NCBI GenBank assembly: GCA_003152255.1
Contig: PLZT01000419.1
Location: forward strand, 29,294 to 44,918
Source of the DNA: Methylocystaceae bacterium
GTDB taxonomy: Bacteria; Pseudomonadota; Alphaproteobacteria; Rhizobiales; Beijerinckiaceae
Reading direction: 5' to 3'
DNA length: 15,625 nt
Part shown: in pieces, positions 96 through 4,419 of the stretch
Layout: every line of letters starts with the position of its first letter
How positions within the stretch are numbered: the stretch's first letter is position 1
The notes under the pieces: model-generated
What the model was told of the DNA's origin: nothing
Databases searched by the model: none
The model's input: the letters and a program-made list of their open reading frames with translations, nothing else
Translations under genes and position numbers: made by a program

Positions 96-449
96 TTGCC
101 TCCCCAGTAGCTTTAAGTTAAATATCGGTGAACGCGCCGATGCTTCGCACGGACTGTTCGGCTTTGCCGGCCTTATCCGAGAGAGCGCATCGCGCCCGCG
201 CGACTGCCCTGCATTGCAGCTTTCTAGCATGCGGCGAGGTCGCGAATGCAAGCAATTTCGACATATTGGCCGTGCCGCCGGTCGGTTTGCCGGCCAGGGC
301 CGGCGCGCGCGCCGCGATTTCTGGCGCTCCTCGATCGTCCAGCGCGGCGCTAGCCCCTCGGTCGAGGCGGGCCGACGGAAAACCCGCTTTTCTAACCTCG
401 CCGTCTCTATATTGTCGTCGCGGGGCCGTCCGGTGATCGGCGAACCCTT
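96..449. other. Intergenic region with no convincing gene
   Basis: GC-rich stretch between the hydrolase and the insertion element. Two overlapping plus-strand open frames run through it, but they lack ribosome binding sites and recognisable domains. A short GCGGG/CCCGC stem followed by TTTT (about 368-391) is a weak terminator-like hairpin. TATATT at 408-413 resembles a -10 box and could belong to the promoter of the TPR gene now on the far side of the insertion; no good -35 box pairs with it. I see no tRNA or known RNA motif. Confidence 0.4.
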
Positions 450-457: not shown

Positions 458-483
458 GGCGATTATGTAGTTGACGAACCACG
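458..483 (+). repeat. Left terminal inverted repeat of the IS1595-family element
   Basis: 26 bp beginning GGCGATTATGTAGTT and ending CGAACCACG. It matches the reverse complement of 3283-3308 except at positions 3, 16 and 17. Mismatches 16 and 17 fall inside the putative -35 box (TTGACG, 471-476) of the transposase promoter. Confidence 0.92.
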
Positions 484-499
484 AAAGGTGATGTAGCTT
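471..499 (+). promoter_or_regulatory. Candidate transposase promoter overlapping the left inverted repeat
   Basis: TTGACG (471-476) matches five of six bases of a sigma-70 -35 box. It is followed after 17 bp by TAGCTT (494-499), a weaker -10 box keeping the TA...T pattern. Transcription would start near 506, just before the AAGGAG ribosome binding site (507-512) of the transposase. Placing -35 within the terminal repeat is common in insertion sequences and lets bound transposase repress its own gene. Predicted from sequence only. Confidence 0.5.
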
Positions 500-520
500 C
501 AGAGTCAAGGAGCTAGATCA

Positions 521-1441
521 ATGTCCGTTCTCTCGCAGGCCCACTTCCACGACGAACCCGCCGCTTTCGCCCATTTGGAGCGTCTACTGTGGCCGGAAGG
601 CCCCGTTTGCCCTCATTGCGGTTCGGCGTCTGGGAAGCATTACGACTTGCGCAAGACGCGCCTCGGCCTCCGCAAATGCTCGGATTGCCGCAAGCAGTTC
701 ACCGTGAAGGTTGGCACGGTTTTCGAGAGCGCGCACGTCCCGCTGCATAAGTGCCTGCAAGCCGTCCACCTGCTTTGCTCGTCCAAGAAGGGCATTAGCG
801 CGCATCAACTGCATCGCGTGCTTGAGGTTCAATACAAGACCGCGTGGTTCCTTGCTCATCGCATCCGCGAGGCCATGCGCTCGGGCGCGCTTGCTCCGAT
901 GGGCGGCCCCGGTAGCGTCGTGGAAGTTGACGAGACTTTCATCGGCAAGAAGCCCGGCGCTCCCGTGAAGCGTGGCTACGGCCACAAGAACGCGGTTCTT
1001 TCGCTTGTGGATCGCAAGAGCGGCGAAGTTCGTTCGTTCCATGTGGACGGCACGAAGGCTTCCGATCTTGTCCCGATCATCAAGGCGAACGTCGCAAAAG
1101 AAACCGCGATCATGACAGACGAAGCCGGCCAGTATCACAACCTCGGCGCCGACTTCGCCAGCCATGAAAGCGTCAACCACGGCAAAGAGGAATATGTGCG
1201 CGGCGACGTTCATACGAACACCGTCGAAGGCTACTACAGCGTGTTCAAGCGCGGCATGAAGGGCGTTTATCAGCACTGCAAGGAGAAGCACTTGCATCGC
1301 TACGTCGCGGAGTTTGATTTCCGCTACACGAACCGTTCTGCTCGGGGCTGCGAGGATCAAGAGCGCGCTACGCGTGCCTTGAAGGCATCCAAGGCAAGAG
1401 GATCACTTATAATCCAGTTGACTGCTGATCGTGACCCTTGA
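521..1441 (+). CDS. IS1595-family (ISXO2-like) DDNK transposase
   Basis: A 306-aa transposase that cuts and joins the ends of the surrounding element. Residues 30-56 form a zinc ribbon (C30, C33, C53, C56), the N-terminal domain usual in this family. The catalytic domain follows: EVDET with D137, IMTDE with D200, then HTNTVEG with N233, E236 and K243, matching the DDNK pattern that separates IS1595 transposases from ordinary DDE enzymes. Length is normal for the family. The ATG at 521 follows AAGGAG with an 8-base gap, and the first residues (MSVLSQAHF, then a WPEGP-CPHC region) are typical, so the start is firm. No frameshift or missing catalytic residue is seen, so the protein is probably functional. 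A candidate promoter overlaps the left inverted repeat. A long antisense frame on the minus strand is a codon-bias shadow. Confidence 0.95.
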   Translation: MSVLSQAHFHDEPAAFAHLERLLWPEGPVCPHCGSASGKHYDLRKTRLGLRKCSDCRKQFTVKVGTVFESAHVPLHKCLQAVHLLCSSKKGISAHQLHRVLEVQYKTAWFLAHRIREAMRSGALAPMGGPGSVVEVDETFIGKKPGAPVKRGYGHKNAVLSLVDRKSGEVRSFHVDGTKASDLVPIIKANVAKETAIMTDEAGQYHNLGADFASHESVNHGKEEYVRGDVHTNTVEGYYSVFKRGMKGVYQHCKEKHLHRYVAEFDFRYTNRSARGCEDQERATRALKASKARGSLIIQLTADRDP

Positions 1442-1477
1442 CACGAATCGGTTAGCGACCAATCTTCAGTTTGCCGG

Positions 1478-1519
1478 GGGCGCGTGAGTGCGCCGCGAGG
1501 TTCGCCTCACCCGGCGCCC
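1478..1519. terminator. Hairpin between transposase and DUF3800 genes
   Basis: GGGCGC-GTGAG (1478-1488) can pair with CTCAC-CCG-GCGCCC (1506-1519), giving an 11-bp stem with a 3-base bulge and a 17-base loop. It lies between two converging genes, and its right arm overlaps the stop codon of the DUF3800 gene. There is no T-tract on either strand, so termination is a guess from position; it could instead separate or stabilise the two transcripts. Confidence 0.35.
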
Positions 1520-2280
1520 ACCTCCCAGCTTCCGCTGGGGAACTTGACTAATCCATATCCCAGAATTTTCTTCGAAGGCCCTGTTCTGAATGCAGGCAAC
1601 AGTAACTTCGCGAAGGTTTGGTCCTTGGAATTAAAATATCTCCCGATTGCTCCCGCGATCATGTCGGCAAATTGAACCCCCACACTTTGATGGCTCGGTG
1701 CCAAAAATAGTGTTTCAACGAAATTATCATAGCTACTGAAGTTTGACGCGCTCGAATGCACCAGCTTTTGGTGATGCTTCCTCAGACGTTCATCTTGTTT
1801 GCGTCCTCGATGATCAGATATGATTATCCCACATTCTGTGTGTTTGTTCGGCCCAACTTCCTGCAAAAGATACTGGAATCTCTCAGTAACTGGTTTATAT
1901 GTATATTCATATAAGTCCTCTTCGTCTTTTATGTAGCTTTTCGTGTACGCAGTAGGCGCGTGAGATATGCAAGCTATTATTTTCAACTCAGCCCGTTTGG
2001 TTATCAACTTAAACATGTCGCTTCTAAAATTAAATCTTTGTTCCATGTTAAGGTGCGACACGTTATTAATTGCTTCTTTGTTCCTTTCTCCAAAATGTCG
2101 CCATTTAATTTCACCAACAATTCTGTATCGCTCATCGTTCTTTAGGCTTTTAAAATCCTCAGACAGCGCTTTCCAAGAGATCGCTGGCATTGCTAACCCG
2201 GCGATGACAAAGTGTGGCTGCGTCTGTGTGGAGGTTGGCTTTGGCGGCGTCCCAGACTCGTCGATGAAAAGCAGGTGCAT
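1507..2280 (-). CDS. DUF3800 domain protein, IS cargo
   Basis: A 257-aa protein with the marks of the DUF3800 family: an N-terminal FIDESG motif (D7, E8), a GLAMP-type strand near 28-32, GEIKWRHF (E57), IIISDHRGR (D156) and a C-terminal QFADMIAGAIGR helix (D206). The spaced acidic residues resemble an RNase H-like nuclease active site. That is inference from the pattern; the biochemical activity of the family is not established to my knowledge. DUF3800 genes are frequent on phages and mobile elements. I chose ATG at 2280 because the family normally begins a few residues before FIDESG; a GTG at 2304 would add eight residues but overlap the divergent 60-aa gene. Neither start has a strong ribosome binding site. 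The gene is markedly AT-rich compared with the transposase and host genes. The 60-aa gene starts 12 bp away on the other strand. Confidence 0.85.
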   Translation of the reverse strand: MHLLFIDESGTPPKPTSTQTQPHFVIAGLAMPAISWKALSEDFKSLKNDERYRIVGEIKWRHFGERNKEAINNVSHLNMEQRFNFRSDMFKLITKRAELKIIACISHAPTAYTKSYIKDEEDLYEYTYKPVTERFQYLLQEVGPNKHTECGIIISDHRGRKQDERLRKHHQKLVHSSASNFSSYDNFVETLFLAPSHQSVGVQFADMIAGAIGRYFNSKDQTFAKLLLPAFRTGPSKKILGYGLVKFPSGSWEVGAG

Positions 2281-2292
2281 AGGGTTGCTCAC

Positions 2293-2475
2293 ATGAAGAA
2301 GCACGAAGTGACTTCAAAAACACAGTCTGAAGCTTTCGTCGAATCCGCCCGCGAACTCGGCTGCGACGACGACCCCGCGCATTTCGACGAAGTGCTCAAG
2401 AAGGTCGCGCGACATAAGCCGGCGGATGGCGATAAGCCGGTCAACGCGCCTCCGAAGAAAGAAGTTGAGAAATGA
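2293..2475 (+). CDS. Small acidic hypothetical protein (60 aa), IS cargo
   Basis: Begins MKKHEVTSKTQSEAFVESAR and continues with ELGCDDDPAHFDEVLKKVARHKP, then a lysine- and proline-rich tail (VNAPPKKEVEK). The central ARELGCDDD-FDE-LKKVA helix resembles short uncharacterised proteins I associate with mobile regions of Hyphomicrobiales, where they sit beside longer cargo genes. That recollection is not a database result. There is no signal peptide or membrane segment. The ATG at 2293 is preferred over an in-frame GTG/ATG extension reaching back to 2212, because the extension would lie antisense inside the DUF3800 gene. The preceding AGGG is a weak ribosome binding site. The stop codon overlaps the start of the next small gene (ATGA), suggesting translational coupling. 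Function unknown; it could be a partner or regulator of DUF3800. Confidence 0.7.
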   Translation: MKKHEVTSKTQSEAFVESARELGCDDDPAHFDEVLKKVARHKPADGDKPVNAPPKKEVEK

Positions 2476-2564
2476 AATGGCTGCTTCTCTCGCCATTAGC
2501 GGAGGCCTTCGTTCAGTTTGGGATTCGTATCAGGCAGGCGCAACTGAAGGCACTCGGCCTCTAG
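2472..2564 (+). CDS. Possible 30-aa peptide coupled to the 60-aa gene, IS cargo
   Basis: A short frame, MKWLLLSPLAEAF followed by VQFGIRIRQAQLKALGL, starts inside the stop codon of the 60-aa gene through an ATGA overlap, the classic arrangement for translational re-initiation. The AAGAAAGAAGTTGAGA stretch just upstream offers a purine-rich, GAG-containing binding site. The peptide is an amphipathic-to-hydrophobic helix with basic residues, so membrane or partner binding is possible. Its TAG stop shares the CTAG palindrome with the stop of the opposing 110-aa gene. It is too short for homology to be judged by eye. The gene-like junctions on both sides are the main support; it could also be chance. 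Confidence 0.45.
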   Translation: MKWLLLSPLAEAFVQFGIRIRQAQLKALGL

Positions 2565-2893
2565 TTTCGATGAAGCCATGTTGTTGGCATTGTAAATTCT
2601 TGGCTCGCTGAAAAATCTATGCCTACCTCTATTACCAATACAGAGTCATGCCCTCCCAGAAATGCTGGTTTGTTCGCTGGCTTGTCTATTGCAGCGGAAA
2701 TCTGGGCCGCATTCAGTGTTGATTTTACGAAATATCCGAACACGTCTGCCGTAACAGATCGCCAAACTAATTCCGGCGCAATCGCAGATACGCTGGCAAG
2801 TTGCGTTTGCAACGGCGGGACAACAGCCGCCAAATGGCGTGGGCTTGTATCACCAAGCCTAACAACCACGAGAAAACGTCGGAAAGCCAACAT
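2561..2893 (-). CDS. Hypothetical protein (110 aa), IS cargo
   Basis: The protein begins MLAFRRFLVVVRLGD and has alternating strand and helix segments: an N-terminal beta strand (FLVVVRL), a helix and strand about 40-54 (ELVWRSVTADVFGYFVKS), a helix with NAAQISAAID, then a strand DSVLVIEVG near residues 82-90 and a terminal WLHRN. The layout resembles small ferredoxin-like-fold proteins of the SinR/Cas2-like type in general shape only; I cannot assign it to a family with confidence. The start is well supported: AAAGGA lies 6 bases before the ATG at 2893. It is the second gene of a probable minus-strand pair with the zinc-ribbon gene, 76 bp downstream of it. Its stop shares CTAG with the opposing 30-aa frame. 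Function unknown. Confidence 0.65.
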   Translation of the reverse strand: MLAFRRFLVVVRLGDTSPRHLAAVVPPLQTQLASVSAIAPELVWRSVTADVFGYFVKSTLNAAQISAAIDKPANKPAFLGGHDSVLVIEVGIDFSASQEFTMPTTWLHRN

Positions 2894-2969
2894 GGAGCAT
2901 CCTTTATGCGCGAAGACCCGCTATCGCTTGATCCTTACATCGGTCCGTTCCCTCGTCAGGAAACCAACG

Positions 2970-3233
2970 TCACCGTCTTGTTAGATTCGTTAGTGCGGAT
3001 TGAATCCAACTTAGAGTCGACGACTGGTGTTGAGCTATCTGCTTTAGCTCCGCAATCTCTTTCTCCTGAGTTTTTAGAAGAGAGCCGAGGTTGTAATAGT
3101 CCAGCACTCCTACGGGAACGCCACAGCTAACGCACTGAAGGACGGATTGCTTGAAATTGCCTCCTATGGGATCGACCGTTTTTATTTCCCATTGGGTTCC
3201 GTTGCATTTCGGGCAATTTGTTGTGAAAGACAT
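2970..3233 (-). CDS. Small zinc-ribbon/coiled-coil protein (87 aa), IS cargo
   Basis: An 87-aa protein starting MSFTTNCPKCNGTQWEIKTV. Two CxxC knuckles (C7/C10 and C34/C37) are spaced as in a zinc ribbon. A short strand and tyrosine-rich turn follow (VGVLDYYNLGSLL), then a charged helix (about 52-85, KTQEKEIAELKQIAQ) likely to form a short coiled coil. Such proteins usually bind nucleic acid or a partner protein; no specific role can be assigned. The ATG at 3233 is preferred over an upstream in-frame start at 3260 because GGAG lies 9 bases before it and the longer frame would run through a hairpin (3235-3282). It is the gene nearest the right end and reads inward, so a promoter in or near that end would drive it and perhaps the 110-aa gene. 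Confidence 0.75.
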   Translation of the reverse strand: MSFTTNCPKCNGTQWEIKTVDPIGGNFKQSVLQCVSCGVPVGVLDYYNLGSLLKTQEKEIAELKQIAQHQSSTLSWIQSALTNLTRR

Positions 3234-3234
3234 A

Positions 3235-3282
3235 GCGAATCTCCGGTTGAGTAGCCTCATGCTCTCAACCTACCCGATTCGC
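3235..3282 (-). promoter_or_regulatory. Long hairpin at IS right end covering the zinc-ribbon gene's ribosome binding site
   Basis: Three nested stems: GCGAATC (3235-3241) with GATTCGC (3276-3282), GGTTGAG (3245-3251) with CTCAACC (3264-3270), and AGC (3253-3255) with GCT (3261-3263) around a 5-base loop. Small asymmetric bulges separate the stems. On the minus-strand RNA, the GGAG ribosome binding site (complement of 3241-3244) is at the foot of the second stem. Any transcript entering from outside the element would carry the whole hairpin and may hide this site. This recalls the protective hairpins of IS10/IS50, a comparison made by inference. Confidence 0.6.
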
Positions 3283-3308
3283 CGTGGTTCGCAAACTACA
3301 TAATCCCC
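3283..3308 (-). repeat. Right terminal inverted repeat of the IS1595-family element
   Basis: Read on the minus strand it starts GGGGATTATGTAGTT and ends CGAACCACG, matching 23 of 26 positions of the left repeat. Read outward on the plus strand it contains CATAAT (3299-3304), a -10-like hexamer pointing at the TPR gene, but without a convincing -35 box. Confidence 0.92.
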
Positions 3309-3316: not shown

Positions 3317-3351
3317 GGCCACGGCGATTCCTGTTGCGGGAGGAAGCTACG

Positions 3352-4419
3352 ATGAATATTATACTAAAATGGTCAACTTTTAACGGCGGCGGTCGCCATA
3401 GGGAACCAAGGCAGATGGCTCGGTCATTCGTTTATTCCAGCGCTCTGGTCGCTTTCGCGGCGATTTTCTCGATCTCGATCTCTAACGCCGGCGCCGCCCC
3501 GAAAGACGGCTGGGCGGGATGCCGTAGCGCAAATCCCGATGAGCGCATCGCCGGATGCACCAGCGTGATCGATCACATCGCCAAGGAGTCGCGCCACAAT
3601 AAGATCGCGGCCTATTTCAACCGCGCCGGCGCTTACGAAGCCAAGGCGAATTGGGATCGGGCGATCGAGGATTACACCAAGGCGCTCGAACTCGACCCCA
3701 AATCCGCGACGATACTCAGCGCGCGCGCCTCCGCTTATCGGGGCAAGGGCGATCTCGATCACGCGCTCGCCGAATATAGCGTCGTCTTGAGCGAGAGCCC
3801 GAAGGACGCCGTCGCCCATCTTGGTCGTGGCGAAATTTATCATTTAAAGGCCGATTACGATCACGCCATCGCCGATTATGACGAGGCGATCAAGCTGGAC
3901 TCCAAAAACGCCGCGGCCTTCAGCGCGCGCGCCATCGCATGGCGCTTGAAGGGCGACGCCGAAAAAGCGCTGGCGGATCTGAGCGAGGCGGTCAAGCTCG
4001 ACAAAAAAACGGCGGCGGCTCTGAACGCCCGCGGCGCCTTCTATCAATCAAAGGCCGATTTTGAGCACGCCCTCGCGGATTTCAGCGACGCGATCAAGCG
4101 CGACCCCAAGTCGAACCAATCCTACAGCAATCGCGGCCTCGCCTATCACGCCAAGGGGGATCTGGATCACGCCATCGCCGATTTCGACGAGGCGATCAAA
4201 CGCGATCCAAACTACGCGGCCGCTTATCTTAATCGCGCCAACGCCTGGCGCGCCAAGAAAGACTTGGACCGCGCGAAGCAGGATTACGAGGTGGCGCTCA
4301 AGCTGAAGCCGGAATTGGCCTCGGCGAAGAAGGGCCTCGATGAAGTGGAGAAATTAATCGCCAAAAAGGCGGCGACGGCCGCTCCGACGGCGGCGCCCAC
4401 GCCGGCCGCGAGCCATTAA
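3352..4419 (+). CDS. Exported seven-repeat TPR protein
   Basis: A 355-aa protein with an N-terminal export signal and seven consecutive 34-residue tetratricopeptide repeats. The repeats keep the TPR pattern closely, for example NRGLAYHAKGDLDHAIADFD, each ending in a K-DP-like turn. They form a superhelical protein-binding surface. A hydrophobic segment (SALVAFAAIFSISISNAGA) and an AGA-AP cleavage site indicate a periplasmic protein. The tail is alanine/proline-rich (ATAAPTAAPTPAASH). The ATG at 3352 follows GGGAGGAA at ideal distance; a later ATG at 3415 would give a more classical signal peptide (MARSFVYSS), so the start is not fully settled. The gene now begins 43 bp from the right end of the IS1595 element and has probably lost its original promoter context. 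Binding partners unknown. Confidence 0.85.
   Translation: MNIILKWSTFNGGGRHREPRQMARSFVYSSALVAFAAIFSISISNAGAAPKDGWAGCRSANPDERIAGCTSVIDHIAKESRHNKIAAYFNRAGAYEAKANWDRAIEDYTKALELDPKSATILSARASAYRGKGDLDHALAEYSVVLSESPKDAVAHLGRGEIYHLKADYDHAIADYDEAIKLDSKNAAAFSARAIAWRLKGDAEKALADLSEAVKLDKKTAAALNARGAFYQSKADFEHALADFSDAIKRDPKSNQSYSNRGLAYHAKGDLDHAIADFDEAIKRDPNYAAAYLNRANAWRAKKDLDRAKQDYEVALKLKPELASAKKGLDEVEKLIAKKAATAAPTAAPTPAASH

Follow-up and report, generated by a model that had tools for sequence, protein, structure and literature searches.

An IS1595-family transporter element with a DUF3800 load, and the insertion of its relatives beside SOS-type boxes

The element at the locus

We analysed a window of 15,625 nucleotides (the whole stretch of DNA, positions 29,294 to 44,918 of contig PLZT01000419.1, assembly GCA_003152255.1, from a Methylocystaceae bacterium), in which an earlier note, made from the letters alone, had placed a mobile element with inverted ends and an 8-bp duplication, assigned to the IS1595 family of insertion sequences (IS) and loaded with five cargo genes. 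The limits and the family assignment both hold (Table 1). The terminal repeats (26 nt, 88% identity) are the longest inverted pair found between positions 300 and 3600, and a separate end-finding script gave 21 of 24 bases identical. In the nearest genome available, from the same genus (G001, contig L235), the site is uninterrupted: the window flanks, joined through a single AAACAAAA, align to it over 843 bp at 92%. Because this empty site has a single AAACAAAA, insertion with duplication is demonstrated.

Table 1. Features of the element and its immediate borders (positions in the window)
Feature	Positions	Strand	Remarks
Complete IS1595-family element	458..3308		2851 bp; inverted ends, 8-bp duplication, empty site in G001
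Target duplication, left copy AAACAAAA	450..457		Matches right copy exactly
Target duplication, right copy AAACAAAA	3309..3316		Matches left copy exactly
Left terminal inverted repeat	458..483	+	Similar ends in related elements
Right terminal inverted repeat	3283..3308	-	Similar ends in related elements
IS1595 transposase, 306 aa	521..1441	+	Pfam, NCBIfam
Slot A cargo, DUF3800 protein, predicted RNase HII-like fold	1507..2304	-	Start at 2304 (GTG) or 2280 (ATG); Pfam, PADLOC, fold
Hallmark gene, 60 aa, carrier part	2293..2475	+	Relatives in 53/53 complete elements, each time on the strand of the transposase
Unproven 110-aa frame, slot B	2561..2893	-	No Pfam family, no relative among fetched loci
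Slot B cargo, 96 aa, two Cys pairs, zinc-ribbon-like	2970..3260	-	4 database relatives
GAAC half-site	442..445		To the left of the duplication, at exactly 4 bp; no second half to make an SOS-type box

The transposase matches Pfam DDE_Tnp_IS1595 (8.5e-37), with an N-terminal zinc ribbon (Zn_ribbon_IS1595, 1.1e-13), and the NCBIfam IS1595 model at 1.7e-56, above the family cut-off; a DDE transposase with a zinc ribbon, terminal inverted repeats and an 8-bp target duplication together place the element in the IS1595 family. Only 918 of the 2851 bp code for transposase, in agreement with the claim that over half of the element is something else, and that remainder lies between conserved ends and has moved with the transposase, as had also been claimed. 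With the DUF3800 and 96-aa genes inside positions 458-3308, and a related element (L031) that is without these loads, the window element belongs to a known kind, the passenger-carrying or transporter IS (tIS) of this family.

The count of five cargo genes stood only in part: three genes are supported (DUF3800, 60-aa and 96-aa), while the 110-aa frame, with no Pfam family at E <= 1 and no match in 110 fetched loci at E <= 1e-4, and the other overlapping small frames are unproven. The DUF3800 protein matches Pfam PF12686 at 1.2e-18 (68.7 bits against a curated cut-off of 21) and has 622 database relatives; a structure model and fold match give it an RNase HII-like fold with conserved acidic residues, and it is predicted to cut RNA or DNA. 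A putative role in defence is plausible. For the 96-aa protein the best database identity is 95%, and its zinc-ribbon matches are all sub-threshold.

A carrier with two slots

A transposase scan with one genome per species found 512 relatives, of which the best 80 were kept as a discovery set; with the window this makes 81 sequences. We called an element complete where at least 7 of 8 bases of the duplication agreed and the ends had at least 13 matches to the consensus, and 53 of the 81 passed. Most of the 28 others end near a contig border or yielded no end pair; the initial end calls of two loci (L042 and L083) were wrong matches. The complete elements span 2038-4234 bp (median 2952), with duplications agreeing at 8/8 bases in 52. 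They share one layout: left end and transposase, slot A, a small gene that we term the hallmark gene (the 60-aa gene of the window), slot B, and right end.

Relatives of the hallmark gene lie downstream of the transposase on the same strand in all 53, with a core of 34 residues in 52 elements and 35 in one. A relative is also present in 20 of the 28 remaining loci; seven of the eight without it have <1.4 kb of DNA after the transposase, and the eighth (L071) gave no match despite 1.9 kb. Further afield the gene thins out: among 27 more distant complete elements from a class sample (transposase identity 33-66%, all at least 1.7 kb) it occurs in eight and is missing from 19. A hallmark profile run against 289 genomes of the class matched in 18 (21 places), 15 of these places being near an IS1595 transposase on the same contig (counted by hand). 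Among 5.8 billion proteins there were 1242 matches at E <= 0.001; of the 120 listed, none holds a Pfam domain, and some are named DNA-binding protein. The predicted model has two helices (residues 11-21 and 28-40) at modest confidence (pLDDT 74, pTM 0.35), and a fold search with it returned four PDB matches, none convincing (best E 3.4). As judged from its distribution, the 60-aa gene is part of the carrier, not of the cargo. We considered whether it might be the dedicated antitoxin of DUF3800; we rejected this, as it accompanies the other cargo types too. In a database listing the window's hallmark protein appears on eight contigs and the DUF3800 protein (window 1510-2280) on four, suggesting that close kin may have copies with other cargo.

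Cargo change can be seen in L031, the element that G001 itself carries at another place. Its transposase is 92% identical to that of the window, its ends match, and it has a related 60-aa gene. In element coordinates, the DNA of the two aligns at 1-941 (left part including the transposase, 89%), 1862-1963 (near the hallmark gene, 85%) and 2771-2851 (right end, 91%); both cargo stretches are unalignable at the DNA level, and no homology links the cargo proteins at E <= 1e-4, even though Pfam assigns the slot-A protein of each to DUF3800. Since L031 shares the carrier and differs in cargo, the set of DUF3800 and zinc-ribbon-like protein represents one load of a carrier with two slots. The idea that the cargo forms an accessory system survives in altered form: a defence-like load fits the family, but it is not a fixed five-gene set, and the 60-aa gene goes with the carrier.

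Turnover is almost complete among the 53. Homologous cargo (E <= 1e-4) was found in 0 of 7 transposase pairs at least 90% identical for slot A and 0 of 6 for slot B; at 80-90% identity the counts were 3 of 55 and 2 of 50. Conversely, L066 and L074 carry BstA proteins 94% identical on carriers whose transposases are 81% identical. Low sharing among closely related carriers, together with this BstA pair, shows that cargo moves between carriers. The earlier note had proposed looking for the same cargo order in other genomes, and the order transposase, DUF3800, 60-aa gene does recur, in L042 (DUF3800 at 49% identity) and in L106 (DUF3800 split into two pieces). It had counted against itself copies lacking the cargo with this copy unique in having one, or terminal repeats not conserved in related elements. 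The particular cargo of the window is indeed missing from other copies, but cargo of some sort is the rule, since every one of the 53 elements is 2.0-4.2 kb long; and the terminal repeats are conserved.

What the slots hold was read from 125 main open reading frames (ORFs), picked by length and codon composition, with L109 and L056 added by hand. By Pfam (E <= 0.01), DUF3800 is found in 16 of the 27 minus-strand ORFs of slot A, and PIN and SocA_Panacea in eight and five, respectively, of its 51 plus-strand ORFs; elements other than that of the window often have two-gene sets with PIN or Panacea domains there. The 47 slot-B ORFs include two Cas2-like proteins (CRISPR_Cas2, best 1.2e-05) and single cases such as dCTP deaminase, Beta protein, FRG and NYN. 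Two slot-B ORFs that fall in one BLAST cluster (L039:6195-6512 and L110:6181-6474) look Cas2-like.

Insertions at a fixed distance from SOS-type boxes

In 20 elements the target duplication stands exactly 4 bp from a 15-mer of the form GTTC/GAAC-N7-GTTC/GAAC. Three more have a box with one mismatch in the same register (L046, L052, L096), and two have exact boxes at other spacings (L088, L107). The direct repeat GTTCN7GTTC is given as the SOS box of Caulobacter crescentus, where mmcB is SOS-regulated, in PMC9578287. Among 285,743 flank positions the register is found at 26 (9.1e-5), and an exact box at any spacing in 20 of 4000 random 128-bp flank windows. Ten of the exact cases are Mesorhizobium elements at mmcB (identified by Pfam for L043 and by flank similarity for the rest) and eight, in records of several genera, are at comM-type genes (Mg_chelatase/ChlI; Pfam for L039, L058 and L104, reading or flank similarity for the rest); of the other two, L034 is inserted upstream of recA, and the neighbour of L059 is a 2'-5' RNA ligase-like (LigT-like) gene.

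The box is faced by the left end in eight elements and by the right end in 12. As read, no two of the 20 duplications have the same 8-mer (there are 19 distinct ones if orientation is allowed for), and in each the two copies match. The gene lies on the box side for recA and mmcB and on the opposite side for comM; with a gene on either side, it is from the box, not from the promoter, that the distance is kept. In a quick-method tree of 80 transposase rows, the 23 box elements (20 exact and three near) all fall in one 30-row group with support 92, and the box in register was found in none of the other 23 of the 53 complete elements. This group includes the window, which with L031, L032 and L035 stands beside the main box group. 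The window's GAAC half-site also stands in the empty site of G001. Since the window has a half-box only, SOS targeting is a property of the clade and is not apparent in this copy.

The pattern was sought beyond the discovery set in two order-wide searches. In 397 genomes we looked for a box, then 2-31 free bases, then an element end. The GTTC-first pattern gave six matches, all of them from a single genus and carrying the box sequence of mmcB, five of them at the predicted spacing of 12; they partly repeat the discovery set (by their 8-mers, L229 is L063 and L233 is L095). The GAAC-first pattern gave a single match in these genomes, with no true box. A transposase search of 327 genomes returned 16 stretches, nine of which were resolved, two being repeats of L092 and L054; of the seven new elements three have the exact box in register (L252, L254 and L261), with L254 and L261 adjoining comM (read by eye). 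The far (left) flank of L252 resembles an element end.

Several sites hold more than one element end. At eight of the ten mmcB sites the bases that follow the duplication resemble the start of a further element end (GGCGATT); in L229:587-4998 a second end, with a weak match to the hallmark, follows the first element and uses its 8-mer; L233:401-4051 has a second element end; and L230, L231, L232 and L234 have an end at the box with no transposase match in 20 kb. Internal SOS-type boxes were seen in nine of the 53 elements, at no common place. Some of the non-box sites look terminator-like, but hairpins lie beside the duplication in 5 of 30 against a 10% background, and we make no claim of terminator targeting. 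In the class sample, L165, an element without a hallmark match, has in its right flank an SOS-type box that adjoins the duplication (0 bp, not 4), and an element-like end on the opposite side. Two related elements (L186 and L195) have a palindrome with a GGTATTATAATACC core in common next to their duplications, a hint that different operator-like targets may serve other clades.

Interpretation

We consider it likely that the window holds a two-slot IS1595 carrier whose slots are refilled with cargo that is probably protective, and whose clade often ties its targeting to SOS-type boxes. The transposase would bind both ends and insert the 2.85-kb unit with its 8-bp duplication, as family chemistry leads us to expect. 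Comparison of elements shows that the carrier parts are kept while the slots are refilled, probably through recombination across the shared transposase, hallmark gene and ends, and exchange may be helped by the pile-up of elements at the same sites. The recurrence of nuclease, PIN, Panacea and anti-phage genes suggests that cargo is retained for host protection or for its own inheritance. In the clade containing the window, elements have often gone in, whichever way round, at exactly 4 bp from a box and next to a conserved repair gene; the simplest cause would be that the transposition complex docks on operator-bound LexA, or reads the box sequence itself.

Taken further, these would be a lineage of minimal transposons that carry defence genes and are guided by the host LexA: the transposase, perhaps with the hallmark protein, would dock on SOS boxes, and because the same boxes are hit repeatedly, elements would pile up at repair-gene promoters and exchange cassettes there, making operators ports for a shared anti-phage pool. 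We put this forward only tentatively and think it rather doubtful. Were the SOS-box register true targeting, a transposon would land by a global stress operator, a landmark common to alphaproteobacterial genera, and DNA-damage control, transposition and the spread of anti-phage genes would be tied together in one very small system, at its minimum one transposase, one 60-aa protein and one 15-bp site. The two-slot carrier also offers a route to new defence candidates, namely whatever lies from transposase to hallmark gene and from hallmark gene to right end.

A number of observations weigh against the reading of a protective two-slot carrier with box-tied targeting. On the side of cargo and carrier, PADLOC matches of the window DUF3800 are moderate; many cargo genes have no defence link; the number of PADLOC families matched (E <= 0.001) is no higher in cargo (91) than in a control of 125 flanking ORFs drawn at random from 234 (98), only the strength of the matches differing; and selection on the hallmark gene is only moderately purifying (median ratio of nonsynonymous to synonymous substitution, dN/dS, 0.55 over 170 pairs). 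On the side of targeting, the window site has the proximal GAAC only; the mmcB box departs from the canonical direct repeat in being inverted (GTTC-N7-GAAC); two loci, comM and mmcB, account for 18 of the 20 exact cases, so that full independence of the events is lacking; the discovery set was limited to the 80 nearest of the 512 relatives; and a class-wide test (60 stretches, 27 resolved and kept) found the box in register in 0 of 27.

The cargo counts also feed the best-surviving alternative, that this is an ordinary tIS with chance cargo lacking a defence theme, the hallmark gene either riding along or regulating transposition in a simple way. Members of the IS1595 family that carry passengers, such as ISNha5, are already described as tIS (PMC11891212, PMC3129680), and many cargo ORFs are without assignment. 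Yet the hallmark gene is constant in the 53 complete elements while its neighbours change, and the two strands of slot A have recurrent contents (DUF3800; PIN and Panacea). The strongest PADLOC matches are near full-length PD-Lambda-5 A and B in L054 (3.7e-164 and 4.3e-119), BstA in L066 and L074 (5.8e-119 and 1.7e-116) and PDC-S15 in L069 (2e-103), against a best listed control match of 1.4e-27, many of the listed control matches being to ATPase models; PD-Lambda-5 and BstA are anti-phage systems already known. On balance we give an ordinary tIS a lesser, though appreciable, chance of being the whole account.

A second alternative is that DUF3800 and its neighbour form a toxin-antitoxin module that maintains the element, instead of an anti-phage system. 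PIN domains are linked to toxin-antitoxin systems, as is Panacea by its Pfam name, so the two-gene sets of other slots fit, and in the window DUF3800 and the hallmark gene diverge from starts that overlap. The hallmark gene, however, accompanies other cargo types, and slot A offers DUF3800 no other partner, which leaves a toxin-antitoxin module unlikely. That the box register reflects survivorship or shared ancestry, in which a handful of old insertions, at promoters that put up with them, were passed on and given new cargo, would suit the concentration at comM and mmcB but is improbable given the distinct duplications with matching copies, the two ends facing the box, the same register at recA, at the LigT-like gene and in the out-of-sample L252, and the genes on either side of it. 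Survivorship by itself would not hold the distance constant to a single base.

Among known systems, tIS of the IS1595 family share with our elements the transposase, the terminal repeats and passenger genes inside the element; the parts of PMC11891212 and PMC3129680 that were available describe no constant hallmark, two-slot turnover or SOS-box register. The RNase H fold of DUF3800 has been reported already (PMC10910872), and PDC-M04A and other DUF3800-bearing defence candidates share this protein with the window (PADLOC PDC-M04A component, 7.5e-12), with the difference that only the DUF3800 component was matched here, as a single gene in a transposon slot, partner-less as read. In a search of titles and abstract openings that covered few subscription journals and not the founding IS1595 paper, we found nothing on LexA-box-targeted insertion sequences, nor any description of the hallmark gene, of the two-slot turnover or of the SOS-box spacing. 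The hallmark-split carrier with cargo turnover and the SOS-box spacing both look new.

Two better-known designs invite comparison. Tn7-type transposons insert repeatedly at a fixed distance from a conserved chromosomal landmark and carry anti-phage cargo, and both traits recur here; in place of the Tns proteins, however, our elements have one IS1595 transposase and the 60-aa protein, and their landmark is an operator box at several genes, with either element end facing it. Integron cassette arrays likewise combine a constant platform with exchangeable small cassettes, but no integrase or attC sites were seen here, the whole carrier transposes, and each slot holds few genes.

A few minor observations remain. 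A search of the window against Rfam gave no match for non-coding RNA, and promoter and terminator scans of it gave no more than shuffle level. One discovery-set record titled Oceanobacillus (Bacillota; L072) carries an element that groups with alphaproteobacterial ones on the tree, pointing to a wrong label, contamination or wide transfer. A few dozen bases downstream of the window element, at 3334-4419, lies a gene for a repeat-rich protein (TPR-like, by eye) that is well conserved in the genus.

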